A stretch of DNA of 11,477 bases from an uncultured Chlorobiales bacterium (GTDB lineage Bacteria; Bacteroidota; Chlorobiia; Chlorobiales; Chlorobiaceae), in assembly GCA_903901395.1 (NCBI GenBank), contig CAIUQW010000053.1, positions 1 to 11,477 on the forward strand, in the 5' to 3' direction. The notes beneath the pieces are model-generated. The model searched no databases. It was not told where the DNA came from and worked only from the letters and a program-made list of their open reading frames with translations. Positions 1 through 11,477 of the stretch are shown here, one piece after another (positions within the stretch are counted from its first letter, which is position 1; every line of letters starts with the position of its first letter). The translations under genes and the position numbers were made by a program.

Positions 1-95
1 AAACAACTCTTTCTTTAATCGTATTAAAAAATCCCTGTAATTCCTTTTAAATCATGCGCTTCCCGCTCAGGGCATCCCACACAAAAGGTTACTTA

Positions 96-120
96 GCTCT
101 ATCTGCAATAGATTGAGAGC
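96..120 (-). terminator. Possible terminator hairpin behind the short-chain dehydrogenase gene
   Basis: On the minus strand, 49 bases past the dehydrogenase stop codon, GCTCT and ATCT pair with AGAT and AGAGC around a 5-base loop, with a two-base bulge on one side. The sequence that follows has a short T-rich patch (CCTTTT) about ten bases on but no T-run directly at the stem, so this is a weak rho-independent terminator at best. Confidence 0.35.
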
Positions 121-168
121 ATGATTGTTCAAGATCAGCAATCTGCAACAAGGAATAAAAGGCGCGAT

Positions 169-1086
169 TTACAGTTCGCGGACTATCCGTTCGGACACGT
201 CCCAAAGCTTACGAGCCAGAATGGGGTCTACGGTGTGGCGGCTCGATCTGACGGCGTTGCAGTCGGCCAGGTATGCGCCTCCCATCACTGCCGCTCCGGG
301 ATGCACGGCGGCGAAAAGCTGCGTCGCCGCGCCTTGTTGCACCGTTTTGAGGAAAACCGGAGCGAGCATGTTCAACAGGCGCTGCCCGGCGCTTCCGGTG
401 TTCCTGGCCAGCTTTGTGGGAATGACGCCGGGATGCACCGACATCGCAAGCTTTTTCGAACCGGCGAACTGACGCTGTAACTCCTTTGCAAACAAAATGT
501 TGGCAAGCTTGGACTGGCCATAGGCAGCCCAAGGGCTGTAACCACGCCCTCCGCTCAGATTGTCGAACTGAATCCCTCCCTTTGGTGCAAATTTATGGTA
601 TGAGCTGCTTACCACCACGATGCGGCCATCGCTGGCGATGCTGTCGAGCAGGCTGGTGACGAGCAGAAAATGAGCGACATGGTTGGTGAAAAACTGAAGC
701 TCGTATCCGCTCGCCTGCTGAAGCGCTGGCGTCGCCATGATTCCGGCGTTGCAGATGATGGCGTCGAGCTTGTAACCGGCATCCCTGATTTGCGTCGCGC
801 AACTCCGCACGGAGGCGGGGTCGGACAACTCGCAAGCCAGGCCGGTGGCGCGATTCTGCAATCCTGCGCAGAAGCGCTCCGCCCCTTCCCGCGTCCGCGC
901 CGTACCGAGAACATGCGCCCCGCGCAACGAGAGCACCCGGCAGCTCTCCGCGCCAAGGCCGGAGCTGCATCCGGTAACCAGCACCGTCTTGCCTTTAAGG
1001 GATAAACCTTCGGTAACCTTTTCTGCGGTCGAGTTGGCCCCGAATCCGGTAGGTCCGGCTGGCTTCAGTCTGGTTGCAAGCGACAT
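169..1086 (-). CDS. Short-chain dehydrogenase/reductase (retinol-dehydrogenase-like SDR)
   Basis: This 305-residue protein is a classical Rossmann-fold NAD(P)-dependent oxidoreductase. Visible motifs, in order, are the cofactor-binding glycine motif TGCSSGLG (residues 39-46), NAGIM (113-117), the catalytic serine region VVSSSY (158-163), the catalytic pair YGQSK (Tyr189, Lys193) and the following HPG turn (218-220). An N-terminal stretch of about 30 residues (GFGANSTAEKVTEGLSLKGK) precedes the Rossmann fold and matches the lead-in of retinol dehydrogenase/WWOX-like and protochlorophyllide-reductase-like SDRs. Length and motifs indicate an intact enzyme. The substrate cannot be read from sequence; hydrophobic alcohols or aldehydes are typical of the group. 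It has no signal peptide, so it is probably cytoplasmic. No good Shine-Dalgarno precedes the ATG. The start is chosen because it gives the full family N-terminus. It appears to be a single-gene unit. Confidence 0.88.
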   Translation of the reverse strand: MSLATRLKPAGPTGFGANSTAEKVTEGLSLKGKTVLVTGCSSGLGAESCRVLSLRGAHVLGTARTREGAERFCAGLQNRATGLACELSDPASVRSCATQIRDAGYKLDAIICNAGIMATPALQQASGYELQFFTNHVAHFLLVTSLLDSIASDGRIVVVSSSYHKFAPKGGIQFDNLSGGRGYSPWAAYGQSKLANILFAKELQRQFAGSKKLAMSVHPGVIPTKLARNTGSAGQRLLNMLAPVFLKTVQQGAATQLFAAVHPGAAVMGGAYLADCNAVRSSRHTVDPILARKLWDVSERIVREL

Positions 1087-1382
1087 GAGGTATATAGCGT
1101 TTGAAACAGGTTAAACCGCCGTTTTTTATCCGTTACTCCGATGATGCCATATCATCAAAACGAAGGATAGCGAGCATCGTTATTTCATTTAAATTACAAT
1201 ATCAGCAATGAGTTGCAACAACTCGCATCGCGCGACCCGCAGAACTGTTCTGTCAAGTTTCAGCGCGAGAAGAACACAATACCCGAAAAGGTAAACAGTG
1301 ATGAAATACGCCGCGCTTCATCGGTAACGACTCCGCTGCTTGACACTTTATCACACATCGAGCCGCCCTACGGCAACCAATA
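1087..1382. other. Intergenic region without a recognisable gene
   Basis: This AT-richer spacer lies upstream of the dehydrogenase and downstream of the small membrane frames. It contains two small perfect inverted repeats: GATGAT/ATCATC with a 5-base loop at 1140-1156, and GAGTTG-CAA-CAACTC at 1210-1224. Neither has an adjacent T-run on either strand. The promoter of the dehydrogenase should lie here, but I cannot point to a convincing -35/-10 pair. Confidence 0.5.
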
Positions 1383-1628
1383 TCACAACACGGAAAACAG
1401 CAGACCTGCGATAAGGGCGACGACGGCATAGAGTGATTTTTTCCAGGGAGTCTCTGCCGAGGTTCTTACATGTAACCGATAGTTGTAGAGAAAAAGACCG
1501 GAGCAATAAACCATGGCGATCATCGGCACGGCATAGCGGAAAAATGCGCTTTGAAGAAAATAGTTTGCAGGCGGAAACACGATCAGCATGACGCCGACGA
1601 TTAAAAATCCGAGACCGGAAACCCTCAT
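1383..1628 (-). CDS. Small three-helix membrane protein, downstream member of an overlapping pair
   Basis: I do not recognise the family. Read from the ATG at 1626-1628 it is 81 residues with three predicted membrane helices: about 3-19 (GLGFLIVGVMLIVF), 31-49 (YAVPMIAMVYCSGLFLY) and 65-81 (SLYAVVALIAGLLFSVL). A basic loop between helices 2 and 3 contains YRLHVR. The start codon overlaps the stop of the preceding small frame as TGATG, the usual arrangement for translational coupling, and AAGAGG lies about 14 bases upstream. An in-frame TTG at 1652 would give 89 residues. Alternatively this is the C-terminal part of a single four-helix protein whose gene is interrupted by a frameshift near 1650; the sequence alone cannot decide. 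Confidence 0.55.
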   Translation of the reverse strand: MRVSGLGFLIVGVMLIVFPPANYFLQSAFFRYAVPMIAMVYCSGLFLYNYRLHVRTSAETPWKKSLYAVVALIAGLLFSVL

Positions 1629-1798
1629 CAGGACGATGACGACCTCTTGCAAGCCCGCACTGAGCTGATGCCATTCGACTCCTGAAGCTTTTCATGAAAA
1701 GCCAGCAGCCTTTCCGAAAAGAGATTCCGGTACGCCATCGTCAACGAAACGATACCGACGAAAAGGTACAGAAGTACCGACAGGAGTTCACCCATCAT
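1628..1798 (-). CDS. Tiny single-helix membrane protein, or N-terminal part of a frameshifted membrane protein gene
   Basis: This frame encodes 56 residues from the ATG at 1796-1798; in-frame ATGs also occur at 1807 and 1795, and none has a clear Shine-Dalgarno. It begins with a hydrophobic helix (MMGELLSVLLYLFVGIVSL), continues as a charged, probably cytoplasmic segment (YRNLFSERLLAFHEKLQES), and ends in a low-complexity tail of four serines just before TGA. The serine tail looks like out-of-frame reading. In the next frame the sequence continues smoothly as a hydrophobic protein (LQEVVIVLMRVSGLGFL), which would suit one protein of about 135 residues with four helices. I therefore give similar weight to two coupled micro-genes and to one frameshifted gene. 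No family was recognised. Confidence 0.4.
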   Translation of the reverse strand: MMGELLSVLLYLFVGIVSLTMAYRNLFSERLLAFHEKLQESNGISSVRACKRSSSS

Positions 1799-1913
1799 AT
1801 GGCGCATACCATTTGAAGATATTGGTTTACAGGATCACGTATTGCCGGATCATCGGGCACGGCGCACTCATCGCATCCGCGGGACTCGCCACGGCTTGGT
1901 GTGAGTTGCGTGT

Positions 1914-2333
1914 TCACTCAGCCACGACTTCTGCGTCCCATGTGACCTTGCATCCCGACGCTTTGAGCATGGCGGCGACGCTGCAATATTTATCCATCGA
2001 CAGTCCGGCGGCTTTGTCGAGGTCGGCCTGGCTGCAATCGGAGCTGTGCAGTTTGTAGTGGACGTGAATCGAGGTAAACACTTTCGGATGCGTATCGGCC
2101 CGTTCGGCATCGAGAGTGGCGTCGAGCGTTATCAGCTCTTTTCTCATCTTGGCGAGAATCGAGATGATGTCCAGCATCGAACAGGCGGCCAGCGACTGGA
2201 GCATTATCTCCATTGGCGAGGCATACATGGCGGGATTCGAGGGGTCGAGCGTGGCGTCGAAAAAGGTATGCTGCCCTTTGTCGTTGAGGCCGACAAGCGG
2301 CAGATTTCTGTCGAAAGAAACGGTTGCGCGCAT
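1914..2333 (-). CDS. OsmC/Ohr-family protein, probable thiol peroxidase
   Basis: This 139-residue protein has the OsmC fold signature. OsmC and Ohr proteins reduce organic hydroperoxides with a pair of cysteines in a cytoplasmic homodimer. Here Cys51 in the SPMEIMLQSLAACSM segment, at the start of the central helix, and Cys117 in MDKYCSVAAML sit at the two family positions. The spacing and the YCSVAAML element resemble the YhfA-like branch more than Ohr itself. The N-terminal strand (MRATVSFDRN) and C-terminal strand (KVTWDAEVV) complete the fold. The frame is open upstream to 2480, but that extension is compositionally unlike the family, so the ATG at 2331-2333 is preferred even though no strong Shine-Dalgarno precedes it. 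A role in peroxide or general thiol defence is inferred from the family. Confidence 0.85.
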   Translation of the reverse strand: MRATVSFDRNLPLVGLNDKGQHTFFDATLDPSNPAMYASPMEIMLQSLAACSMLDIISILAKMRKELITLDATLDAERADTHPKVFTSIHVHYKLHSSDCSQADLDKAAGLSMDKYCSVAAMLKASGCKVTWDAEVVAE

Positions 2334-2668
2334 AAGTTTTGAAGAGGAAAACGTTGACGAAAAAAGACTCACAGTTTGGACTGGCTGCCAGCAAAACGGG
2401 TTCCGTGAATGCGCACTCCACGCGAGATGTTCTTGCCGAGGCGGGATGTCTTGTTGACATCGACCGGCAAATATCCTCACGCGGAACTCCTGCGCTATCC
2501 TGTTGTCCGGCGCGAGTAAGTTTATTTTCCACGTTGCGGCGCTCCGGTCAAAAACCGGGATGATTCGCCGACAGCCATAGTCAAAATATCGAAGAATTTC
2601 TCAATGAAAAACACCAGCCTGACGCAGCCAGTCCCGGCACTCCATCGCTCTTCATGCGCGGCGCGATC
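2334..2668. other. Intergenic region of 335 bases without a recognisable gene
   Basis: The region separates the cytochrome gene from the OsmC-family gene, both on the minus strand. Open frames on both strands give basic or Cys-rich low-quality translations with no family resemblance. A short stem CCGGT/ACCGG with a 4-base loop lies at 2544-2557; neither side carries a T-run strong enough to call it a terminator. It may be a remnant of lost coding sequence, but I see no specific homology. Confidence 0.45.
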
Positions 2669-3136
2669 CTACCGTGGATAGCGCACATAGGGTTCCGGCG
2701 GCGTCTTGCCCGGTGGCAAAAAATCGGGCGAAGGGCGACCGGCGGGGCCGAGATGGCGGAGATAGCGATAAATGTCACGAAAATCCCGATTGTTCATGTC
2801 GCGCAGGGCGTACCACGGCATCGGGGGACGAGCTTTGACATCTTTGGCGCGCATCCACTCTCGTTCACTCATCGAGTTCGCCAGCAACCGGAGATTGACC
2901 GGCCAGGTCGTGCCCCACGGGCCGTTCCAGCCAAGATCATCTCCCATGAGCCATTGCGACTCCGGCGTGCGACCATCGGATGAGGCATACCCCTTTGTGT
3001 GGCAATCATTGCATCCGGCGATCATGACAAGATACCGGCCATTGCGAATCGAACCCCGATCCTTGGCCTGTCCTTCAAATCCCGCCAGCAACATCGGCGC
3101 GATCATGCATGAAGTCAACAGCGCTTTTCGTTTCAT
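2669..3136 (-). CDS. Small periplasmic monohaem cytochrome c
   Basis: This 155-residue protein has a Sec-type signal peptide (MKRKALLTSC followed by a hydrophobic stretch, likely cleaved after GQA at residue 24). A single class-I haem c site CNDCH is at 42-46, in the context NGRYLVMIAGCNDCHTKGY. The probable distal axial ligand is Met106 in RPPMPWYALRDM, followed by the closing helix FRDIYRYLRHL. That layout matches one-haem domains of dehydrogenase-associated cytochromes. It ends in a proline-rich tail (PPGKTPPEPYVRYP). The ATG at 3134-3136 is chosen over an in-frame ATG four codons upstream because a strong Shine-Dalgarno lies four bases before it. It should act as a soluble electron carrier in the periplasm. 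No partner oxidoreductase is adjacent, so its donor and acceptor are unknown. Confidence 0.85.
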   Translation of the reverse strand: MKRKALLTSCMIAPMLLAGFEGQAKDRGSIRNGRYLVMIAGCNDCHTKGYASSDGRTPESQWLMGDDLGWNGPWGTTWPVNLRLLANSMSEREWMRAKDVKARPPMPWYALRDMNNRDFRDIYRYLRHLGPAGRPSPDFLPPGKTPPEPYVRYPR

Positions 3137-3140
3137 CGTA

Positions 3141-3146
3141 TCCTCC
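3141..3146 (-). promoter_or_regulatory. Ribosome binding site that fixes the cytochrome c start
   Basis: On the minus strand GGAGGA lies four bases before the ATG at 3136. It overlaps the alternative upstream ATG region and so favours the 155-residue start. Confidence 0.7.
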
Positions 3147-3343
3147 ATCAGTCAAACGTTGACATCGTATCATTTCGTGGTATATCGACAGTACAGCATG
3201 GATCAGCAATCGAAAAACGAGACTAAGAGTTGCCGCGCCCAGCAGGAGCTTGCCCGTGCCGTTGAATGAAACACGGTGCGACGAGGTTATGAATGGAATG
3301 CTGGATTTGACGGAAACCAACGGAGTTCAGAATAAAATACACT

Positions 3344-3880
3344 ATGTCGAGAGAAACTTTTCCTCTTTCGGAGGTTTACGGGTTGCTCGAACCGGGGCCG
3401 GTCGTTTTGCTGACGACTGCCGGAAAAGAGCGGCCAAACGTGATGGCGCAGTCGTGGCATACGATGATGGAGTTCGAGCCGCCGCTGGTGGGGTGCATTG
3501 TTAGCGACCGCAACTACAGCTATGGACTGCTCGAAGCGAGCGGCGAGTGCGTGATCGCGATTCCGCCAGTCGAGCTGGCCGAGCAGGTTGTCGCGTGCGG
3601 CAACTGCTCGGGCGCGGAGATCGACAAGTTCGCAACGTTCGATCTCACGCCGGTTCCAGCGGCGGCGGTCGGCGCGCCGTTGGTCGCGGAGTGCTTCGCG
3701 AATCTGGAGTGCCGGGTAACGGACAGCAGCATGGTCGAGCGCTACGGCCTCTTCGTTTTGGAGGTGGTCAGGGCGTGGATCGATCCGGATGTGAAACATC
3801 CCAGGACGATCCATCATCAGGGCCGAGGCAACTTCATGGTCGCCGGAAAAACGATAACGCTCGATTCGAACGCGAAATAG
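3344..3880 (+). CDS. Flavin reductase-like FMN-binding split-barrel protein
   Basis: This 178-residue cytoplasmic protein belongs to the flavin-reductase-like/DIM6-NTAB family, whose members bind FMN in a split beta-barrel and often reduce free flavin with NAD(P)H. The recognisable core is the opening EPGPVVLLTTAGKERPNVMA (about residues 16-35), the SWHTMMEFEPPLVGCIVS segment that lines the flavin site, and SYGLLEASGECVIAIP. The second half (ECFANLECRVTDSSMVERYGLFVLEVV) fits the family's dimer-forming strands. Length is typical. The ATG has no close Shine-Dalgarno; GGAG occurs about 20 bases upstream. It stands alone on the plus strand, divergent from the cytochrome c gene and converging on the methyltransferase with only 22 bases between stops. 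Partner monooxygenase and physiological substrate are not evident. Confidence 0.85.
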   Translation: MSRETFPLSEVYGLLEPGPVVLLTTAGKERPNVMAQSWHTMMEFEPPLVGCIVSDRNYSYGLLEASGECVIAIPPVELAEQVVACGNCSGAEIDKFATFDLTPVPAAAVGAPLVAECFANLECRVTDSSMVERYGLFVLEVVRAWIDPDVKHPRTIHHQGRGNFMVAGKTITLDSNAK

Positions 3881-3902
3881 CGATTCGCTCGAACCGCGTC
3901 GA

Positions 3903-4679
3903 TTATTTCTCCGCCGAGAGATTGATGCGGCGGAAGGTTTCGAAACAGGTTCCGTCGGGCTGAAGCGTGCGCTCGACCATGCGCTCGACGACAAAGTCGC
4001 GGAATGGCCTGCGCTGGTTTTCGGGCAGGCGTGGCAGTAGCGGCACAATGCTTGGCTGGTCGATCCAGCGAATTATCGCCTCCTTGTCGGGGAAGAATCG
4101 ATCGGCGATGCCGCCCCAGACCATCACGTTGCGAAGACCGCTCTCTTCGGCAAGCGCCGCGTAGGCTTCGACAGTCGGCATGTACCACGGCCACTCGAAG
4201 CCTTCGAATGCCGCCGCGAAGGGGTCGAGCGCCATCGCCTCCCGGATGACCTCGAAGAAGTTGATGCAGTTGCCGTCACCCGCGAAGTCGAAACGCACCT
4301 GCCCGCCTGAACGTAACGCACGGCGGACATTACAGAGAAGCTTGCGGTGATCCTTCACCCAGTGCAGCGTGGCGTTGGAGAAAACGATGTCGAACTCCTC
4401 CTCGAAATCGAGATCGTCGATGTTCATCAGCCTGAACTCCAGCCTCCTCGTCGCTTTAGGCATGGCGGCGGCGATCATTCCTTTCGAGGCGTCGATACCG
4501 AGCACACGGCCATCCGGTAGCCGCTCGGCGATTCTCGATGTCAGAACGCCATCACCGCATCCGAGGTCAAGCACGCTTTCGTCGCCCCGAAGGTCGAGTT
4601 CAGCGATCACCTTCGATCCCCACTCTTTCTGATGCGCGGAGGCCTGCTCGTACCTCTTTCCGTCAAATTCGTACGACAT
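3903..4679 (-). CDS. Class I SAM-dependent methyltransferase, trans-aconitate methyltransferase-like
   Basis: This 258-residue protein has a class I Rossmann-like SAM-binding domain. Motif I is VLDLGCGDG (36-44). An acidic ribose-binding residue sits in LGIDAS (Asp63). DIVFSNATLHWVKDH (97-111) is the element typical of the Tam/COG4106 group, and ALRSGGQVRFDF (121-132) is the post-motif strand. The C-terminal third (WPWYMPTVEAYAALAEESGL and later) resembles the substrate-covering region of trans-aconitate and related small-acid methyltransferases. Small carboxylic acids are plausible substrates, but this is inferred from family likeness. It lies 111 bases downstream of the protease-inhibitor pair on the same strand, with a structured gap, so membership of that transcript is possible but unproven. 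The full-length frame starts at the first suitable ATG; the upstream Shine-Dalgarno is weak. Confidence 0.85.
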   Translation of the reverse strand: MSYEFDGKRYEQASAHQKEWGSKVIAELDLRGDESVLDLGCGDGVLTSRIAERLPDGRVLGIDASKGMIAAAMPKATRRLEFRLMNIDDLDFEEEFDIVFSNATLHWVKDHRKLLCNVRRALRSGGQVRFDFAGDGNCINFFEVIREAMALDPFAAAFEGFEWPWYMPTVEAYAALAEESGLRNVMVWGGIADRFFPDKEAIIRWIDQPSIVPLLPRLPENQRRPFRDFVVERMVERTLQPDGTCFETFRRINLSAEK

Positions 4680-4751
4680 GAGAGTTCTTGCTTTGAGGTT
4701 CGGAAAAACGCAATGGGGCTTCAGGCGAGACAGTCCGCAAGCACAGAAAGA

Positions 4752-4785
4752 TCGCCGGAGAGTGCCACGTGGCCGGAAACGGCGA
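4752..4785 (-). terminator. Palindromic hairpin between inhibitor and methyltransferase genes
   Basis: TCGCCG (4752-4757) pairs with CGGCGA (4780-4785), and the loop itself contains the perfect 10-base palindrome GCCACGTGGC (4764-4773). In minus-strand orientation it starts six bases past the inhibitor stop and is followed by TCTTTCT, a weak T-rich tail. It could attenuate or end the protease-inhibitor transcript; the palindrome could also be a protein-binding site. Confidence 0.35.
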
Positions 4786-4790
4786 AGACG

Positions 4791-5219
4791 CTACTGGCTA
4801 ACTTTGACGCGCACGGAGAACCGGTGAATCACGGAAGCATCACCCTCCCATTGCCGCCACTGTTTCAGTGCGATTTCAGCCGAACCGGCTTTCTTCGCCT
4901 TGAAAACAAACTCCACTTTGCCGCCCGAACCGGGAGGCCCTGGAGCGTAATGCGGCTCGGTCGAGACGAACTCAACAAACTCCTCGTCATAACGATCCAT
5001 CGCCCACTGATACCCGGTCGTCGCATTCTCCGGCAGTTCGATACGAAACGACGATCCAGCAGAAATATCTATCGTCCGTCCGTTATCTTGTTCAATCATC
5101 GTCGTCATGGGCCGAATCTCTCTGTTCTGATCGGGTTCGGAAAAATCGCTGACACACTGCATGGAACACCCACATGCAGTGGTCAGCAGGATAAAAAAGG
5201 TCAGAAAGCGGAACGTCAT
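4791..5219 (-). CDS. Chagasin-family (I42) inhibitor of papain-like cysteine proteases, exported, possibly a lipoprotein
   Basis: This 142-residue protein carries the three loop motifs by which chagasin-type inhibitors block the active-site cleft of C1 proteases. They are NATTGYQW (65-72, the NPTTGY-type loop), PPGSGGKVEF (95-104, the GxGG-type loop) and KQWRQWEG (119-126, in place of the RPW loop). They sit on an immunoglobulin-like beta sandwich beginning at TIDISAGSSFRIELPE. The N-terminus (MTFRFLTFFILLTTACGCSMQC) is a hydrophobic export signal with several cysteines. TTAC or ACGC could serve as a lipobox, but neither is canonical. A linker of about 20 residues separates it from the domain. 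The ATG at 5217-5219 is used; a GTG three codons upstream is possible. The protease gene ends 42 bases upstream, which strongly suggests that this protein restrains that enzyme or protects the cell from it. Confidence 0.85.
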   Translation of the reverse strand: MTFRFLTFFILLTTACGCSMQCVSDFSEPDQNREIRPMTTMIEQDNGRTIDISAGSSFRIELPENATTGYQWAMDRYDEEFVEFVSTEPHYAPGPPGSGGKVEFVFKAKKAGSAEIALKQWRQWEGDASVIHRFSVRVKVSQ

Positions 5220-5234
5220 TTCAGTCACGGTTTG

Positions 5235-5251
5235 ATTGCAAGCTATGCAAT
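5235..5251 (-). repeat. Small hairpin in the protease-inhibitor gap
   Basis: ATTGCA and TGCAAT pair around a 5-base loop in the 42-base gap between the protease stop and the inhibitor ATG. No Shine-Dalgarno is visible in this gap. The hairpin occupies the space 16 to 32 bases before the inhibitor start and could influence its translation or mRNA processing. This role is an inference. Confidence 0.4.
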
Positions 5252-5261
5252 TTATCCGGAT

Positions 5262-6083
5262 TCATACCGTCGCGCCATAGCTTTCGTTGAAAAATCCGGC
5301 ATTGATGTACGCTTCGCTGGCATAGGCAAACCCCTTGTCGCCCCAGACCGTGCCCCAGCTGTTGCGGATGATGAAGCGATTGTCCGCTGTATAACCAACC
5401 ACGCAGATGGCATGACCGCCGCGAGTCGTCTTGGGCTGGAAGGTATCGAGCTTGCCCTTGTTGGCGGTTGCCTTGTCCCAGGTTGCATCAACATTGACAC
5501 CAGCGAGTATGGGGCCGTGAGTTGCAAGCCAGCTTCGCCAGTTGTTCAGATTTTTTGACAGATTGAAGTAGGAGGCCACGCGATACATAGCCGCAGTGGC
5601 GAAAAATGTATTCACATCGCCGGTAAACATTTTGGTGGCGATATGAAACGGCAGCATCGTTTCGGGAACCGATCCGTATTTGCGCAGGATTTCCATCGCC
5701 GCTTTCAGGCTGGTGCCAACGCCTTCGATGAAGGTCTCCGGGCGGCTGGTGAATTCATCGGTCTCTTTGGATGCCATCCAGGTGCAGCGAGGCGAGAGCA
5801 TATCTTTCTGTGCGATCTTGCCTGCCTTGACCATGTGATAGCGGGCAACGCCATCGGTGGAGGCCCACCCAACGCATGAACCGGTATCCTCCTGGTTGTT
5901 GATGCTCCACCAGTCGGCGCGCAAATCGACGCTTGCGGGTATTCCGACCGGCGCAGCCGCAGCCGCGACAGCACTGGCTGCGGCCTGGGCGTGCTCGAAG
6001 CTCCAATCCTTTTCGGTGTTGCGGGATGTGACAAGGTTACAAATTCGATGTAACTCGGGCCGTTCAACTTTTTTCGAAGCCAT
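5262..6083 (-). CDS. Papain-family (C1) cysteine protease
   Basis: This 273-residue protein has the complete papain catalytic layout. Gln64, the oxyanion-hole residue, lies six positions before nucleophile Cys70 in NNQEDTGSCVGWAS. His224 is in RGGHAICVVGY and Asn241 in FIIRNSWGTVWGDKGF, the usual NSWG context. The mature domain probably begins near PASVDLR (49-55). Before it is only a 48-residue N-terminal part with an Ala-rich run (32-45), much shorter than the propeptides of eukaryotic cathepsins. I see no Sec signal peptide, so the enzyme is either cytoplasmic or exported by another route. The Trp that usually follows the catalytic Cys is Val here, as in several bacterial papain-like enzymes. 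The start is fixed by AAGGAG seven bases upstream. It is followed on the same strand by a chagasin-type inhibitor gene. Activity is predicted, because all catalytic residues are present. Confidence 0.9.
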   Translation of the reverse strand: MASKKVERPELHRICNLVTSRNTEKDWSFEHAQAAASAVAAAAAPVGIPASVDLRADWWSINNQEDTGSCVGWASTDGVARYHMVKAGKIAQKDMLSPRCTWMASKETDEFTSRPETFIEGVGTSLKAAMEILRKYGSVPETMLPFHIATKMFTGDVNTFFATAAMYRVASYFNLSKNLNNWRSWLATHGPILAGVNVDATWDKATANKGKLDTFQPKTTRGGHAICVVGYTADNRFIIRNSWGTVWGDKGFAYASEAYINAGFFNESYGATV

Positions 6084-6394
6084 GATCGATCTCCTTGAGT
6101 TGATGGTTAGCGAACAGACCAGGAATGAATCCCGGTTTACTTCATAAGGCCATAAATCGAGGTTTTGCAGTGTTCAGTCGAAACAGGGGGACGGATATAA
6201 TCCTGTAATCAAGGTACGTGATTTAATAATTCCTTCAAAATAACTTCTTTATGACGGTAAAATTCATCGCCATTCGATATGGCGCGGATCGGATAATTGC
6301 GGAAGGGGATTGGCAGGATATTGGAGGCTACTGAAGAAGATGAGGTAATATGGCAATTGTCACGGGAATAAGCGATGAACGCGAGATACAAAAA

Positions 6395-6439
6395 AAGATG
6401 CCTGCCACACGGGAACTGCAATCCGTGAACAGGCATCTT
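6395..6439 (-). terminator. Rho-independent terminator of the cytochrome-porin gene
   Basis: In minus-strand orientation AAGATGCCTG (6439 to 6430) pairs perfectly with CAGGCATCTT (6404 to 6395). An inner stem, CACGG with CCGTG (6427-6423 and 6412-6408), closes a 10-base loop. The stem runs directly into seven T residues (6396-6390). It lies about 80 bases past the stop codon. This is the clearest terminator in the window. Confidence 0.88.
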
Positions 6440-6446
6440 GCGTGAA

Positions 6447-6502
6447 CAGTCACAACTCAACAAATACAGCGGCAATCAATCATATCGATGAAGTTGTGAC
6501 TG
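6447..6502 (-). repeat. 11-base perfect inverted repeat downstream of the cytochrome-porin gene
   Basis: CAGTCACAACT (6447-6457) is the exact reverse complement of AGTTGTGACTG (6492-6502), with 34 bases between. It lies between the stop codon and the terminator. Its right arm shares bases 6492-6496 with a second stem (6487-6521), so the two structures would be mutually exclusive in RNA. Confidence 0.7.
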
Positions 6503-6521
6503 ATCTGCAATCAACTTCATC
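6487..6521 (-). repeat. 10-base perfect inverted repeat overlapping the cytochrome-porin stop codon
   Basis: GATGAAGTTG (6487-6496) pairs with CAACTTCATC (6512-6521), with a 15-base loop. One arm covers two of the three bases of the stop codon (6520-6522). It could form as soon as the gene's 3' end is transcribed. Confidence 0.7.
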
Positions 6522-7788
6522 AGAAACCAACCTGGGTAAATAACTGGAACGAAGAGGGCGCAGTGTAAGCTGAACTACCTTTTTTATGTTCCACGCCAAC
6601 ATATTCAAGCCCCACTTTGGCATTGGGTCTTATCATTGCGGCTACTGCCGGAATCACTTTTTCCATGGTACCATTCAGGTCATCCTTGAGATATTCGTAA
6701 CGAAGCACACCGATAAGCCAAGGATAGAACCAGTAGTCGCTTTCGAGCGAGTATGCCGTACGCTTGCCATAGTTGATGCTGGTATTGGCTTCATCGAGCA
6801 CTTCATTAAAGCGGGCGTACTGACCAAGGAAACGCAATGATCCATAGCTAGCTTCGACATCGAATGAGTATGCGTTTTTCGTCAGACCAGCAAGACCTTC
6901 TTGTGTCGTCGGTTTCGAACCGTTTGCGGAATTGATGTAATTCGCACCAAAAGTTATTGCATTATCCTTTCCAATGTGATCGACTCCATGCGTACCTCCG
7001 GCCCCGCTAAGCAGGCCATGGCCTCCGAGTTTATAGGTAGCTCTGACAAATTTTGAATCAGCTATATTCCCGGCCTCTTCAGGATCTTCCGTACCATTTC
7101 TACCCAATCCGAAAGTCAGTGAATAGCCGCCGGTTGAGCCGGTGTCTCCGGCAAACCTGAGTTCAGCTCCTCTGGAAACTGCTGGCATGGTTGTTGTATA
7201 TCCATCGCGTTTCCATCCCGGCCTGGCGGAAACAAGAACCATTTTTTCGGTAATACCAACTTCACCGAGAACAAGATTCAGACCAGGCTTGAACGTCCAC
7301 ATGAGATTCAGCTTACCCCATTCAAGACCGCCTTCGTTGATGGCAAAATCACCGAAGTAAGTGATTTGATCCGTTACAGTGCCAGCAAAGAAGGTTTCCA
7401 GATCCTCGACAATTTTTGTTTCATTGAATGACCCTGTCTCTACATCCTTTGGAGTATAGGCTCTAATTTTGCCAAGAAAGCCCAGCGTAGGCATATTGGG
7501 CATATCCGATGGCCAGATGGCATTAGGGAACTGATTCTTGTATCCCTCCTGCCCCAGCTTGATCGGTTCTTCTTTCACCATATCCTCATCCTGACCGCTC
7601 GGGAAACGGTAGCCGTTGTTCCGAAATGCTTCACCGAATCCGTTCCTGATCGGAAACGCAGTGTGACAGGTTGAACATGCGGTGTGATACTTACGAGCAA
7701 AAACAGGTAAGGCCGACGCCTCTTTACCAGCATTTACGATGGACGAACCCACTATCAGCGCAAAACAAAGGATAAGTTGTTTCTTCAT
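6520..7788 (-). CDS. Outer-membrane monohaem cytochrome-porin fusion, Cyc2-like
   Basis: This 422-residue protein starts with a signal peptide (MKKQLILCFALIVGSSIVNA). Directly after it comes a haem c site CSTCH (38-42) in the context ALPVFARKYHTACSTCHTAFPIRNGFGEAFRNNGYRFP. The order FAR, CxxCH, FP, FG, F, GY is that of Cyc2, the outer-membrane porin-cytochrome that takes electrons from Fe(II). From about residue 100 to the end the sequence alternates polar and hydrophobic residues, with many aromatic-rich strands, and closes with QLFTQVGF. The final Phe is the usual signal for outer-membrane barrel insertion. Length matches Cyc2 (about 400-440). The start is fixed by AAGGAGG five bases upstream; an in-frame start 18 codons earlier would spoil the signal peptide. 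Likely role: moving electrons across the outer membrane. Donor (Fe(II), mineral or sulfur species) is not shown. Alternative: another family of haem-bearing porins with the same N-terminal pattern. GC is lower than in neighbouring genes. Confidence 0.8.
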   Translation of the reverse strand: MKKQLILCFALIVGSSIVNAGKEASALPVFARKYHTACSTCHTAFPIRNGFGEAFRNNGYRFPSGQDEDMVKEEPIKLGQEGYKNQFPNAIWPSDMPNMPTLGFLGKIRAYTPKDVETGSFNETKIVEDLETFFAGTVTDQITYFGDFAINEGGLEWGKLNLMWTFKPGLNLVLGEVGITEKMVLVSARPGWKRDGYTTTMPAVSRGAELRFAGDTGSTGGYSLTFGLGRNGTEDPEEAGNIADSKFVRATYKLGGHGLLSGAGGTHGVDHIGKDNAITFGANYINSANGSKPTTQEGLAGLTKNAYSFDVEASYGSLRFLGQYARFNEVLDEANTSINYGKRTAYSLESDYWFYPWLIGVLRYEYLKDDLNGTMEKVIPAVAAMIRPNAKVGLEYVGVEHKKGSSAYTAPSSFQLFTQVGF

Positions 7789-7793
7789 CCTTG

Positions 7794-7800
7794 CCTCCTT
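7794..7800 (-). promoter_or_regulatory. Strong ribosome binding site of the cytochrome-porin gene
   Basis: AAGGAGG on the minus strand lies five bases before the ATG at 7788, within a purine-rich run. It is the best Shine-Dalgarno in the window and suggests high expression. Confidence 0.8.
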
Positions 7801-7881
7801 TTTTTGATGACAAAAAACCTTGAATAAAAAACACGAAAACACACGAAACCCCTGAAAGGAGATGCTTTTTCCTCATAAACA

Positions 7882-7914
7882 GATCACAGGATACAGATAT
7901 GATCCGGGTGATCC
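7882..7914 (-). promoter_or_regulatory. Candidate operator upstream of the cytochrome-porin gene
   Basis: GATCAC (7882-7887) and GTGATC (7909-7914) form an inverted pair. Between and overlapping them TGATCC occurs twice, nine bases apart (7900-7905 and 7909-7914). The element lies about 95-125 bases upstream of the start codon. No regulator is assigned, and no clear -35/-10 pair was found beside it. Confidence 0.25.
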
Positions 7915-8349
7915 TGATATATCGTATTGGCAATCAGCGAATAATTACGCTGTTTGTGTAGAGAACAGAGGCTGGTATGTGAAAATCAATCAATAACAGC
8001 CATTGAATGCAACTGCTTCAACTATCACCCTATGGTTTGTTACGCCACAGGGATCCTATCGAAATCAAGAGTAAAGTATGATGCAGGAGAAGAGATTCCT
8101 TGGTATTATCAACGTAGGGCTGAGTGTATCACTCAATTTTCAACGAAGGCATATGGTCACTTCATGTATGAATTTAAGCAATAAAATTACTTTTGCAAGC
8201 GAATTCTTAACGATTGTTTAAAATCACTACACGAAATCATTTAGTAGTCACCACTATTTATAAAGCGGCAGCATCACGATAGTCTCTCAAATACCCGTCA
8301 ATCTCCAATAGAGAATAGCCGTAACGTATTGATATACTGTCAGTTCGGA

Positions 8350-9159
8350 TTACTCCTCCCTGTCGTCAAGGTCGAGCGTTCCCTGAGCGGCGATGGTTCC
8401 GGCGGTGGTTGGCGGGCCTTTGAGAATCCATTCGAAGAAGACGCCGATCAGCGCTCCGGCGAGCGGCCCTGCAAAGTAAATCCAGGCAAGCGCGATATCT
8501 CCGCACACCAGCGCGGGGGCGAGCGAGCGTACGGGATTCATCGACGCGCCGCTGACCGGCCCGGCCCAGAGGCCCGTCATGGCGATGTAACCGCCGACGG
8601 CAATTGCGCCGTTCGGGCCGATGTTCCGCGCACCCGAGGCGGTGCCGAGGATGATGTTGACCAGCGCCGCCGTCAGCGCGATCTCCATGACGAGCACTTT
8701 CAGCGGCGTCATCCCGTGGCCAGGCAGGGTCATACCCGCCGCAACCGCTCCGTTGCCGAACATCGCGCCGAGAAAGAGCGCGGCAAGCCCGCCTCCAGCG
8801 ACTTGGGCGATGATGTAGCCGGGCACGCGAATCCAGGAAAAATTACGCCGGATGGCGAAAGCAATGGTGACGGCGGGATTGAGATGCGCGCCGCTCACCG
8901 TGCCCATGAAGTAGATGATGGCCATCACCATCACGCCAGGCGCGACTGGCAACAGTAGATCAGCCGCATGATTGCCGGTGCTTGCCGCGACAGCCGGGCC
9001 ACCGACTGCCACGAGCACCAGCAGAAACGTGCCCCACAGCTCGGCGAAAATCCGCTGCCACTCATGCTTCGGATCGAGAAAATTGGGCGCGATCTGCGTC
9101 AGCAGCATCCGCGACCTTTCCGCCGCATGGTGGTTGTTGTTCTCTTGCGTTGTAGCCAT
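8350..9159 (-). CDS. Aquaporin-family (MIP) channel with NPA and NPV boxes
   Basis: This 269-residue inner-membrane protein has the two-fold MIP repeat with six membrane helices. The first half-helix box is SGAHLNPAVT (NPA at 94-96). The second is SGASMNPVRSLAPA, NPV at 208-210 instead of NPA, followed by the selectivity-filter Arg211. Aligning by eye to E. coli AqpZ, the other three filter positions fall near Pro74, Gly196 and Ala205. All are small or non-aromatic, where AqpZ has Phe, His and Thr. That suggests a wide pore for small neutral solutes such as glycerol, urea or metalloid acids rather than a strict water channel. The N-terminal 35 residues are polar and the C-terminal tail acidic (LDLDDREE). 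GGAGA lies six bases before the ATG. It is divergent from proA, 233 bases away. Confidence 0.9.
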   Translation of the reverse strand: MATTQENNNHHAAERSRMLLTQIAPNFLDPKHEWQRIFAELWGTFLLVLVAVGGPAVAASTGNHAADLLLPVAPGVMVMAIIYFMGTVSGAHLNPAVTIAFAIRRNFSWIRVPGYIIAQVAGGGLAALFLGAMFGNGAVAAGMTLPGHGMTPLKVLVMEIALTAALVNIILGTASGARNIGPNGAIAVGGYIAMTGLWAGPVSGASMNPVRSLAPALVCGDIALAWIYFAGPLAGALIGVFFEWILKGPPTTAGTIAAQGTLDLDDREE

Positions 9160-9392
9160 GCAAAATCTCCAGACATTATTGTCTTGTTCGCCACCGGCAA
9201 GCGGTGCACGGTCATTTTAATAAAGATAATGAAGCGTCTCAAGATGCTGACTCATAAGCGTCCGTCAGTCTCGGCGCAGCCTGGTATCGATTGCCCGCAA
9301 TTGCCCTCGTCAGACAATTGCGCCAGTTGACGAAGAATGACTATCTTGCGGGCAACCGAAAATCCGACAATTCCTTTTCAAGGAGCAGCCCC
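9160..9392. promoter_or_regulatory. Divergent promoter region between aquaporin and proA
   Basis: Both genes must be transcribed from this 233-base gap. An inverted repeat CGCAATTG/CAATTGCG lies at 9296-9322 with an 11-base spacer; each arm itself contains the palindrome CAATTG. Overlapping its right end, a weak plus-strand promoter is possible: TTGCGC, an 18-base spacer, then TATCTT. AAGGAG at 9380-9385, seven bases before the ATG, fixes the proA start. A frame open further upstream gives no family sequence. Confidence 0.4.
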
Positions 9393-10655
9393 ATGACTGA
9401 GCACGAACTCATCGTCAAACAACTCCAGGCCGTACAGAATGCCAGCCGCAAGATCGTGACCCTCGATACGGACTCCATCAACGGACTGCTCGTCGATCTC
9501 GCCGACCGCATTCCTGCCGCCGCAGAGGCAATTCTCGACGCCAACCGCAAGGATCTCGAACGGATGGATGCCGCCGATCCTCGCTACGACCGGCTGCTCC
9601 TGAACGAGTCGCGCCTCGACGCCATCGCCGCCGACCTGCGCAACGTCGCCGCGTTGCCTTCGCCGCTCGATCGCGTGCTTGAAGAGCGCACGCTACCGAA
9701 CGGGCTAAAGCTGCAAAAAGTGTCGGTGCCGCTTGGCGTGGTCGGTATCATCTATGAATCGCGTCCCAACGTCACCTTCGACGTCTTCGCACTCTGTCTG
9801 AAATCGGGCAATGCCACCGTGCTGAAAGGCGGGAGCGACGCGGCCTTCTCGAACATCGCCATCGTGGAGCTGATCCAGGCGGTGATTCGCGACCGCGGCC
9901 TCGATGCCGACATGATCTACCTCCTGCCTGCCGAGCGCGAGGCGGCGCATATTCTGCTCAACGCGGTGGGCTATATCGACGTCATCATCCCGCGCGGCAG
10001 CCAGCAGCTCATCGACTTCGCCCGTAAGCACTCGACCGTGCCGGTGATCGAGACCGGCGCGGGGATCGTGCACACCTATTTCGACGCGAGCGGCGACCTC
10101 TCGATGGGGCGCGACATTGTCTTCAACGCCAAGACCCGCCGCCCGAGCGTCTGCAACGCACTCGACACACTCATCGTGCACCAGAGCCGCATCGACGACC
10201 TTCCGGTGCTGGTGGAGCTGCTCGAAGAGAAGATGGTGCAGATTTACGCCGACGAACCGGCGTATTACAAGCTGCTTGGCCGCTATCCCGACGAGCTGCT
10301 CGAAATAGCCAGCCCGGGGCACTTCGGCACGGAGTTCCTCTCGCTGAAGATGTCGATCAAGACCGTCGCCAATCTCGAAGAGGCGCTCGACCACATCGCG
10401 CATCACAGCTCGAAGCACAGCGAGGCGATCATCGCCTCCGACCTGGCGGCCATCGACGCCTTCATGAAGCGGGTTGACGCGGCGGCGGTTTACGCCAATA
10501 CGTCAACCGCGTTCACGGACGGAGCGCAGTTCGGCCTCGGCGCGGAGATCGGCATCAGCACGCAGAAGCTGCACGCGCGCGGCCCGATGGCGCTCAAGGA
10601 GCTGTGCAGCTACAAATGGCTGATCACCGGCCAGGGACAGGTGAGGCCCGCCTGA
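9393..10655 (+). CDS. proA: Gamma-glutamyl phosphate reductase
   Basis: This 420-residue cytoplasmic enzyme carries out the second step of proline synthesis, the NADPH-dependent reduction of gamma-glutamyl phosphate to glutamate-5-semialdehyde. It is an aldehyde-dehydrogenase-fold protein of normal family length. Recognisable ProA segments are [19 protein letters not shown] (112-130), [10 protein letters not shown] (145-154), [11 protein letters not shown] (200-210), [12 protein letters not shown] (220-231) and [17 protein letters not shown] (247-263) with catalytic Cys254. Near the C-terminus [31 protein letters not shown] is typical of the family. The start is set by AAGGAG seven bases before the ATG. 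Its stop overlaps the start of lolD by one base (TGATG), so the two are presumably co-translated. The partner proB is not in the window. Confidence 0.97.
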
Positions 10656-11347
10656 TGCTCGAAGCGCGAACGCTCGTCAAATCCTACGCCCTGCCGGGCC
10701 AGCCGCCGCTGAAGATTCTCGACGGCATCGATCTTTCGGTTGCGCCGGGCGAGATGGTGACCATCATCGGCGCATCCGGCAGCGGCAAGACCACGCTGCT
10801 CAACCTGCTCGGCACCCTCGACGCGCCGGACGAAGGCGAGCTGCGTTTCGACGGCGCGACGGTCTTTCAGGGGAGCCGCTGTCTGCTCTCGAAGAAGGAG
10901 CTGGCCGCCTTCCGTAACCGCAAGATCGGCTTCGTCTTCCAGTTCCACCACCTGCTCTCGGACTTCACGGCGCTCGAAAACGTCGCGATGGCCGAGTTCA
11001 TCGGCACCGGCAAGCTCAAGCCCGCCAAAGAGCGGGCCGCCGCGCTGCTCGAAAAGCTCGGCCTGAAGGCGCGATTCGACCACTTGCCGTCGGAATTGTC
11101 GGGCGGCGAGCAACAGCGCGTCGCCATCGCGCGGGCGCTCATGAACAACCCGAAGCTGGTGCTCGCCGACGAACCGAGCGGCAACCTTGACAGCCGCAAC
11201 AGCCGGATGCTCTACGAACTGATCGCCTCGCTCAGCAAGGAGCGCCAGACCTCGTTCGTCATCGTTACTCACAACGAAGAGTTCGCCGCCACCGCCGACC
11301 GCTGCCTCAACATGCAGGACGGCCATTTGCAGGCGTGCGGAGGGTGA
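10655..11347 (+). CDS. lolD: Lipoprotein-releasing system ATP-binding protein LolD
   Basis: This 230-residue ABC ATPase has Walker [10 protein letters not shown] (39-47), a Q-loop at Gln96, signature [15 protein letters not shown] (148-162), Walker B LVLADEP (168-174) and the H-loop His206 in VTHNEE. The segment [19 protein letters not shown] (92-110) is the diagnostic LolD version of the Q-loop region. LolD powers LolC/E in the inner membrane to release lipoproteins to the carrier LolA for delivery to the outer membrane. The ATG overlaps the proA stop, with GGTGAGG upstream as a ribosome binding site inside proA. Longer starts inside proA are less likely, because the family N-terminus begins at [11 protein letters not shown]. 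No LolC/E gene is present in the window. A related MacB-type ATPase is the alternative, but the QFHHLL motif favours LolD. Confidence 0.92.
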
Positions 11348-11477
11348 ACACAACATCGCAAATAACGGTTATTCTCCGTAAATTAAGTTCGAGTTTCCCG
11401 TATCCCATGAAGTGGCCCCCTCCGCGCGGAGAAAAACAGGCAGAGTTTAAGATGGTAACTTGCCGGTTGTTTATGCA
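11348..11477. other. Region after lolD, no assignable gene
   Basis: Two perfect palindromes are visible: AATAAC-G-GTTATT (11361-11373) and CTCCGCGCGGAG (11419-11430). Neither has a T-run in the right place for a lolD terminator. A plus-strand frame from the ATG at 11407 stays open to the window end (23 codons) without a Shine-Dalgarno or family resemblance. It could be the start of the next gene or chance. Confidence 0.4.

Follow-up and report, generated by a model that had tools for sequence, protein, structure and literature searches.

The protease and inhibitor genes of the window

We analysed a stretch of 11,477 nucleotides from an uncultured Chlorobiales bacterium, a green sulfur bacterium (assembly GCA_903901395.1, contig CAIUQW010000053.1, positions 1-11,477), which is referred to as the window. 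The source assembly comprises 2.5 Mb in 457 contigs and is 78% complete. Two neighbouring genes on the minus strand encode a cysteine protease of the papain family (C1) and, starting with an ATG 42 bases after the protease stop codon, an inhibitor of the chagasin family (I42). A simple consensus scan gave no terminator-like site between the two genes, and we infer that they are co-transcribed. The pair contains the only C1 and the only I42 matches in this 78%-complete genome (E 0.001). For the coordinates of all features see Table 1.

Table 1. Features of the protease-inhibitor locus, in positions of the window.
Feature	Position	Strand	Basis
Leaderless papain-family (C1) cysteine protease, 273 aa	5262..6083	-	PF00112; best PDB sequence match 3ois_A
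AAGGAG, Shine-Dalgarno-like, before the protease start	6091..6096	-	sequence; duplex energy -7.1
Oxyanion Gln64 codon	5892..5894	-	kept in 65/65 loci
Catalytic Cys70 codon	5874..5876	-	kept in 65/65 loci
Catalytic His224 codon	5412..5414	-	kept in 65/65 loci
Asn241 codon	5361..5363	-	kept in 65/65 loci
Chagasin-family (I42) inhibitor, long form, 142 aa, signal/lipobox-like N-terminus	4791..5219	-	PF09394; predicted fold like EhICP2, chagasin
Hydrophobic export-signal-like segment with Cys	5160..5219	-	own hydropathy rule
ATG at the domain boundary, in frame and conserved; may be a second start (105-aa form at 5108..4791)	5106..5108	-	43/47 module inhibitors
I42 loop NATTGY, residues 65-70	5010..5027	-	32-sequence alignment
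I42 loop GSGG, residues 97-100	4920..4931	-	32-sequence alignment
I42 loop QWRQW, residues 120-124, R-x-W replacing RPW	4848..4862	-	32-sequence alignment; pattern search

The protease was assigned to Peptidase_C1 with a Pfam E-value of 6.6e-16 and a score of 59.5 bits (cut-off 20.7). The match starts at residue 48. An I29-type propeptide is absent, no propeptide family appeared among the Pfam matches at E 0.001, and an export signal was not seen at the N-terminus. The residues Gln64, Cys70, His224 and Asn241 are invariant in all 14 aligned proteases, the window protein included. They form a Gln-Cys-His-Asn active site, and the protein is predicted to be proteolytic. Its closest solved relative in a PDB sequence search is 3ois (E 1.3e-8), another short bacterial C1A protease, which is described as "cysteine protease" and which we take to be xylellain. 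A structure model of the window protease, for which 14 close relatives were aligned, reached a pLDDT of 48 and was too poor for a fold search or docking.

The inhibitor belongs to Inhibitor_I42 (E 8.2e-22, 77.7 bits, Pfam cut-off 27.2). An alternative GTG start at 5228 would lengthen it from 142 to 145 residues. In an alignment of 32 inhibitors the residues Asn65, Thr68, Gly69, Gly97 and Arg122 are invariant, and Thr67, Tyr70, Gly99, Gly100 and Trp124 are conserved to at least 90%. The canonical loops of the family are NPTTG, GxGG and RPW; the window protein carries NATTG, GSGG and, in place of RPW, an R-x-W motif. According to a simple pattern search, the third loop contains RPWE in five of the 47 inhibitors of the module described below and RSWE or RHWE in 32. 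By sequence, the best solved relatives of the inhibitor are amoebiasin-1 and chagasin. A structure model with a pLDDT of 84 matches EhICP2 (E 2.9e-10) and chagasin (E 3.2e-9) and thus predicts the immunoglobulin-like chagasin fold. The inhibitor is predicted to inhibit C1 peptidases.

These results bear on an earlier note made from the same DNA. Its assignment of the large protein to C1 with the full papain catalytic set, of the small protein to I42, and of both genes to an operon-like layout on one strand with a gap of 42 bases agrees with the domain matches, residues and coordinates. The three chagasin loops that it named were all located; the third, however, is non-canonical.

Two further minus-strand frames of the window encode proteins with a CxxCH motif. 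The first protein, of 440 residues (6520-7842), combines a start resembling a signal with a single CxxCH and a C-terminal Phe, features that would suit a porin-like haem protein; it gave no Pfam or NCBIfam match, and its PDB matches had E-values of 0.3 or worse. A protein of 159 residues (2669-3148), for which a Pfam match was also lacking, contains CxxCH and is similar to a fructose dehydrogenase cytochrome subunit (E 5.4e-9).

Conservation of the gene pair

We scanned 84,980 species with the 14 aligned proteases and the patterns TGSCVGW[AG]S and TWMASKET, a search limited to the subfamily of the window protease, and called downstream I42 genes with a profile from the 32 aligned inhibitors. 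The scan yielded 65 loci, all of which retain the active-site residues. At 38 of them an I42 gene follows directly downstream on the same strand. Split by protease identity, this holds for 38 of the 45 loci with at least 59% identity and for none of the 20 below, two of which (L116, L121) have an I42 gene placed divergently. According to the database labels, the 38 pairs belong to Chlorobi (12), Proteobacteria in the old sense (17), Cyanobacteria (3), Acidobacteria (2) and Actinobacteria (4). The two loci with the most similar proteases (identities of 95 and 94%) are labelled Chlorobaculum. Edaphobacter modestus is one cultured carrier. Seven of the 45 close loci lack an adjacent I42 gene, and three of these seven genomes have an I42 match elsewhere. 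The census across phyla speaks against a chance neighbourhood, and the conserved gene order that the earlier note had proposed as a check is borne out. As the two-gene unit recurs in several phyla, the neighbouring protease is probably the natural target of the inhibitor.

Distances in the protease and inhibitor trees are correlated (r = 0.57, n = 41), a value reached by none of 9,999 permutations. The correlation shows a joint history, partly across phyla; shared species history contributes to it and can also produce such a correlation. Such joint inheritance suggests the adjacent protease as the target of the inhibitor. Some cross-phylum groupings are common to both trees, with modest support.

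A separate observation concerns residue 15 of the protease (RICN; window 6039-6041), which tracks the partner gene: an I42 gene lies downstream at 37 of 43 loci with Cys and at one of 20 loci with Leu. This association may be a mere reflection of the tree.

Among 98 genomes of the order, I42 occurs in 27 (29 hits) and C1 in 46. When coordinates were compared by hand, 22 of the 29 I42 hits proved to have a C1 match as their immediate upstream neighbour in the same orientation. The protease is short and window-like in 17 of these pairs, one of which (G065) has a protease match without the N-terminal part, and in the other five the C1 match is part of a 670-680-residue open frame. The seven hits without an upstream C1 are G055, G066, G059, G053, G070, G021 and G024; G059, counted as unpaired, retains a protease remnant of 31 residues. 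C1 genes of another subtype, without an I42 neighbour, are also common in the order. When flanks of 1.5 kb were inspected, five genomes of the order (L006, L007, L018, L019, L023) had an open frame for a window-type I42 whose neighbouring protease was missing, truncated or fragmentary. Some of these cases may be assembly errors; as they stand, they indicate that the inhibitor can outlive its partner.

Patchy distribution in the order, cross-phylum groupings and intact inhibitors beside lost or broken proteases speak for a toxin-antitoxin or abortive-infection pair, in which the protease, being leaderless, would poison the cell from within once stress or infection had freed it from inhibition. 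We consider this explanation unlikely. Neither protein matches PADLOC at E 0.1, and the export-signal-like start of most inhibitors (see below) also counts against it. The surroundings of the pair argue in the same direction. Among 58 neighbour proteins (of 101 ORFs, from 30 of the 38 pair loci) 12 PADLOC models hit one to three proteins each; for the ten that were rescanned, the hits proved to be ABC ATPases or sigma-54 activators, apart from a single weak match of another kind. Matches so scattered give no clear defence island. The 58 proteins represent mixed Pfam families, judged from the 25 of 54 listed; a secretion gene may be among the remainder. Besides the pair itself, the widest recurring family in the flanking ORFs of the 65 loci covers 11 loci; all eight of its scanned members are ABC transporter ATPases, in varying positions. 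Other flanking clusters cover three to five loci each, mostly within Chlorobi or Mycolicibacter, and three or four of them cross groups. In phages and plasmids the search returned distant C1 relatives only, with at most 46% protein identity.

Beyond the order, we looked for I42 in two wider samples. Of 394 genomes of the phylum, 17 that do not belong to the order had an I42 match at E 0.001, and in 11 of these the match exceeded the Pfam cut-off. C1 is present in seven of the 17, adjacent in two (G290, G333), and absent from ten. In 398 genomes of Pseudomonadota I42 occurs in 28, of which three have any C1 match and 25 have none; the pair is clearly adjacent in G767, and in G731 the I42 gene is followed by a partial C1. 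Many of the I42 proteins in the Pseudomonadota sample look like lipoproteins. Most I42 genes in the wider samples are not beside C1, and the pair is therefore a specific module and no rule for I42.

Export signals and the conserved internal ATG

By our own hydropathy rule, an in-frame hydrophobic segment resembling an export signal is present in 31 of the 47 module inhibitors, compared with 7 of 94 shifted frames; three further inhibitors lie just below the threshold. The majority of the inhibitors thus seem to be exported, and the protease seems to have no export signal. In six pairs (L074, L084, L085, L087, L088, L089) only 28-48 nt separate the protease stop from the I42 domain, which leaves too little room for a signal. 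Of the adjacent pairs found in the phylum sample, G333 combines a short leaderless C1 with an I42 frame of 97 residues, and G290 a C1 with a signal-like start with an I42 with a lipoprotein-like start. In both of these, enzyme and inhibitor agree in their export signals, which makes the mismatch in the window-type pairs stand out. With a leaderless protease and an exported inhibitor, simple self-protection requires either that some of the inhibitor stays in the cytoplasm or that the protease itself gets out of the cell.

A leaderless enzyme with an exported inhibitor alongside is the usual layout of effector-immunity pairs that act in the periplasm. The pair could accordingly be read as an interbacterial effector delivered by a type VI system, together with its immunity protein. 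The earlier note had suggested an interbacterial system with built-in immunity; in its type VI version this reading is not supported for the order, as the sheath gene VipB is found in none of the 98 genomes, with a positive control in E. coli. The pair is also present in Mycolicibacter, where the inhibitor is leaderless. We regard type VI delivery as very improbable.

An in-frame ATG precedes the NATTG loop by 25 to 33 codons in 43 of the 47 module inhibitors and in 3 of 33 I42 proteins that are not beside C1, a control in which 11 entries were picked by eye as exported and several are near-identical, so that it does not amount to 33 independent cases. Two control entries had been dropped because they had no anchor motif; one was an unrelated second frame. 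An additional protein search for I42 proteins outside the module yielded one near-identical protein (99%). The residues ahead of the conserved ATG vary. Its position is, we assume, approximately where chagasin itself begins. In five of the six pairs with the short spacing, the ATG at the domain boundary is the start nearest to the domain. The 105-residue forms of two close relatives exist as protein entries (P0125, P0126).

G+C content and predicted folding dip around the conserved ATG, with a composition-corrected p of 0.026 against shuffled sequences; the raw folding difference reflects mostly base composition. Strong ribosome sites (-8 or lower) precede 6 of 38 conserved ATGs and 15 of 548 control ATGs, the best ATG being taken where several were present. 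At a threshold of -5 the counts are 10 of 38 and 107 of 548, and a rank test found no difference (p = 0.54). Only 2 of 21 Chlorobi reach -5 at the conserved ATG. Neither inhibitor start in the window has a strong site (-3.7 and -3.3), and strong sites are found at some upstream inhibitor starts. On the whole, the ribosome sites give weak evidence for initiation at the internal ATG.

We tentatively propose that one inhibitor gene might serve two compartments, although we hold this to be somewhat less than an even chance. The upstream start would give an exported (lipo)protein, and the ATG at the boundary a cytoplasmic chagasin that restrains the neighbouring protease. The conserved methionine may instead have a structural role.

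The export-like segments also fit a different function, in which the inhibitor is an outward shield against foreign papain-like proteases and the two genes are adjacent only because the same circumstances call for both. It would then resemble Cip1 of Pseudomonas syringae. According to passages of PMC5014320, Cip1 and the other chagasin-like inhibitors of Pseudomonas are, like the proteins studied here, bacterial inhibitors of the I42 type; they have a signal peptide and inhibit C1A proteases. They differ in being aimed at host proteases, and most Pseudomonas genomes are without a C1A protease (PMC5014320, same passages). The 25 of 28 I42-bearing Pseudomonadota genomes without a C1 match also count in favour of a shield. 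Against it stand the order and adjacency kept across phyla in 38 of the 45 close loci, the six pairs with no space for a signal, and the conserved ATG, which is mostly missing from I42 proteins that are not beside C1. We think a shield quite unlikely for the module.

Proposed role and related systems

In our judgement the locus is, with good likelihood, a two-gene enzyme-inhibitor module that consists of a leaderless papain-family protease and a dedicated chagasin-type inhibitor. From the interpretation in the earlier note, family placement, operon-like layout and conserved neighbourhood are retained, and effector-immunity of the type VI kind is set aside. Among the points against the module is that a protease without a leader would encounter an exported inhibitor only if either of the two moved to another compartment. 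We propose that the neighbouring genes, protease first, would yield the leaderless enzyme together with its inhibitor. The three loops of the inhibitor are expected to insert into the active-site cleft and so hold the protease inactive in places where its activity is unwanted. We conjecture that the exported inhibitor could guard the envelope against protease that has leaked or is released from lysed kin, and that the form from the internal start could guard the cytoplasm. The widely conserved pair would provide a concrete endogenous target for I42, and the odd split of export signals, with the enzyme inside and the inhibitor outside or in both places, makes the where and why of inhibition directly testable.

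Co-transcribed genes for a papain-fold protease and its inhibitor are already a known kind. Passages of PMC3462683 describe them for staphopain-staphostatin, SpeB-Spi and the Bacteroides C10 systems. As in the pair presented here, the papain-fold protease of the staphopain-staphostatin (C47/I57) and SpeB-Spi systems is encoded contiguously with its inhibitor, which is thought to block premature activity in the cytoplasm (PMC3462683, same passages). Those systems combine a secreted protease with an inhibitor that works in the cytoplasm, whereas here the protease is leaderless and without an I29-type propeptide and most inhibitors are export-like. In the window itself a signal-less protease start stands beside an inhibitor that is export-like by our own rule, so that the staphopain-type combination of exported protease and cytoplasmic inhibitor is not found. 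The inhibitor families differ as well, I42 here and I57 or Spi there.

The Bacteroides C10 proteases and their inhibitors Bfi and Bti are also comparable: the papain-fold protease is transcriptionally coupled to a small inhibitor that is predicted to be beta-rich and exported (passages of PMC3462683). The C10 proteases have a leader and a propeptide, and the inhibitors are staphostatin-like and not of the chagasin family. For IPI-Isp1 of Bacillus subtilis it has been proposed, similar to our suggestion, that a single inhibitor gene uses alternative starts to produce both an intracellular and a secreted protein (passages of PMC3901451). That system differs in its serine protease target and its fold topology, and its genes are not in proximity. 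To our knowledge, protozoan chagasin is leaderless only, and its gene is not paired with that of its protease. It shares with the window inhibitor the I42 family and the fold of our model, and it inhibits an endogenous C1 protease (passages of PMC5014320).

In the open-access literature, as far as the accessible parts of the papers extend, we found no earlier report of a bacterial I42 gene paired with a C1 gene, and a term search of the available text of a paper on papain-family evolution (PMC10380794) did not return the words chagasin or I42. What appears to be new is the signal-less protease beside mostly export-like inhibitors, together with the in-frame ATG at the domain boundary, which suggests an exported and a cytoplasmic form.

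I42 genes also follow long C1 frames of 592-680 residues, namely in the five such pairs of the order, in a second pair at L064, in G111 and in G767. Three of these long proteins were scanned. Each has a strong C1 match and C-terminal repeats with weak matches only, to DUF346 above the cut-off in the L064 protein and to fungal lectin, DUF346 and FG-GAP below the cut-off in the other two. At L064 (5001-8844) the two arrangements stand in tandem: after a short-type C1-I42 pair comes a longer C1 of 648 aa, accompanied by a weaker I42 match of its own.
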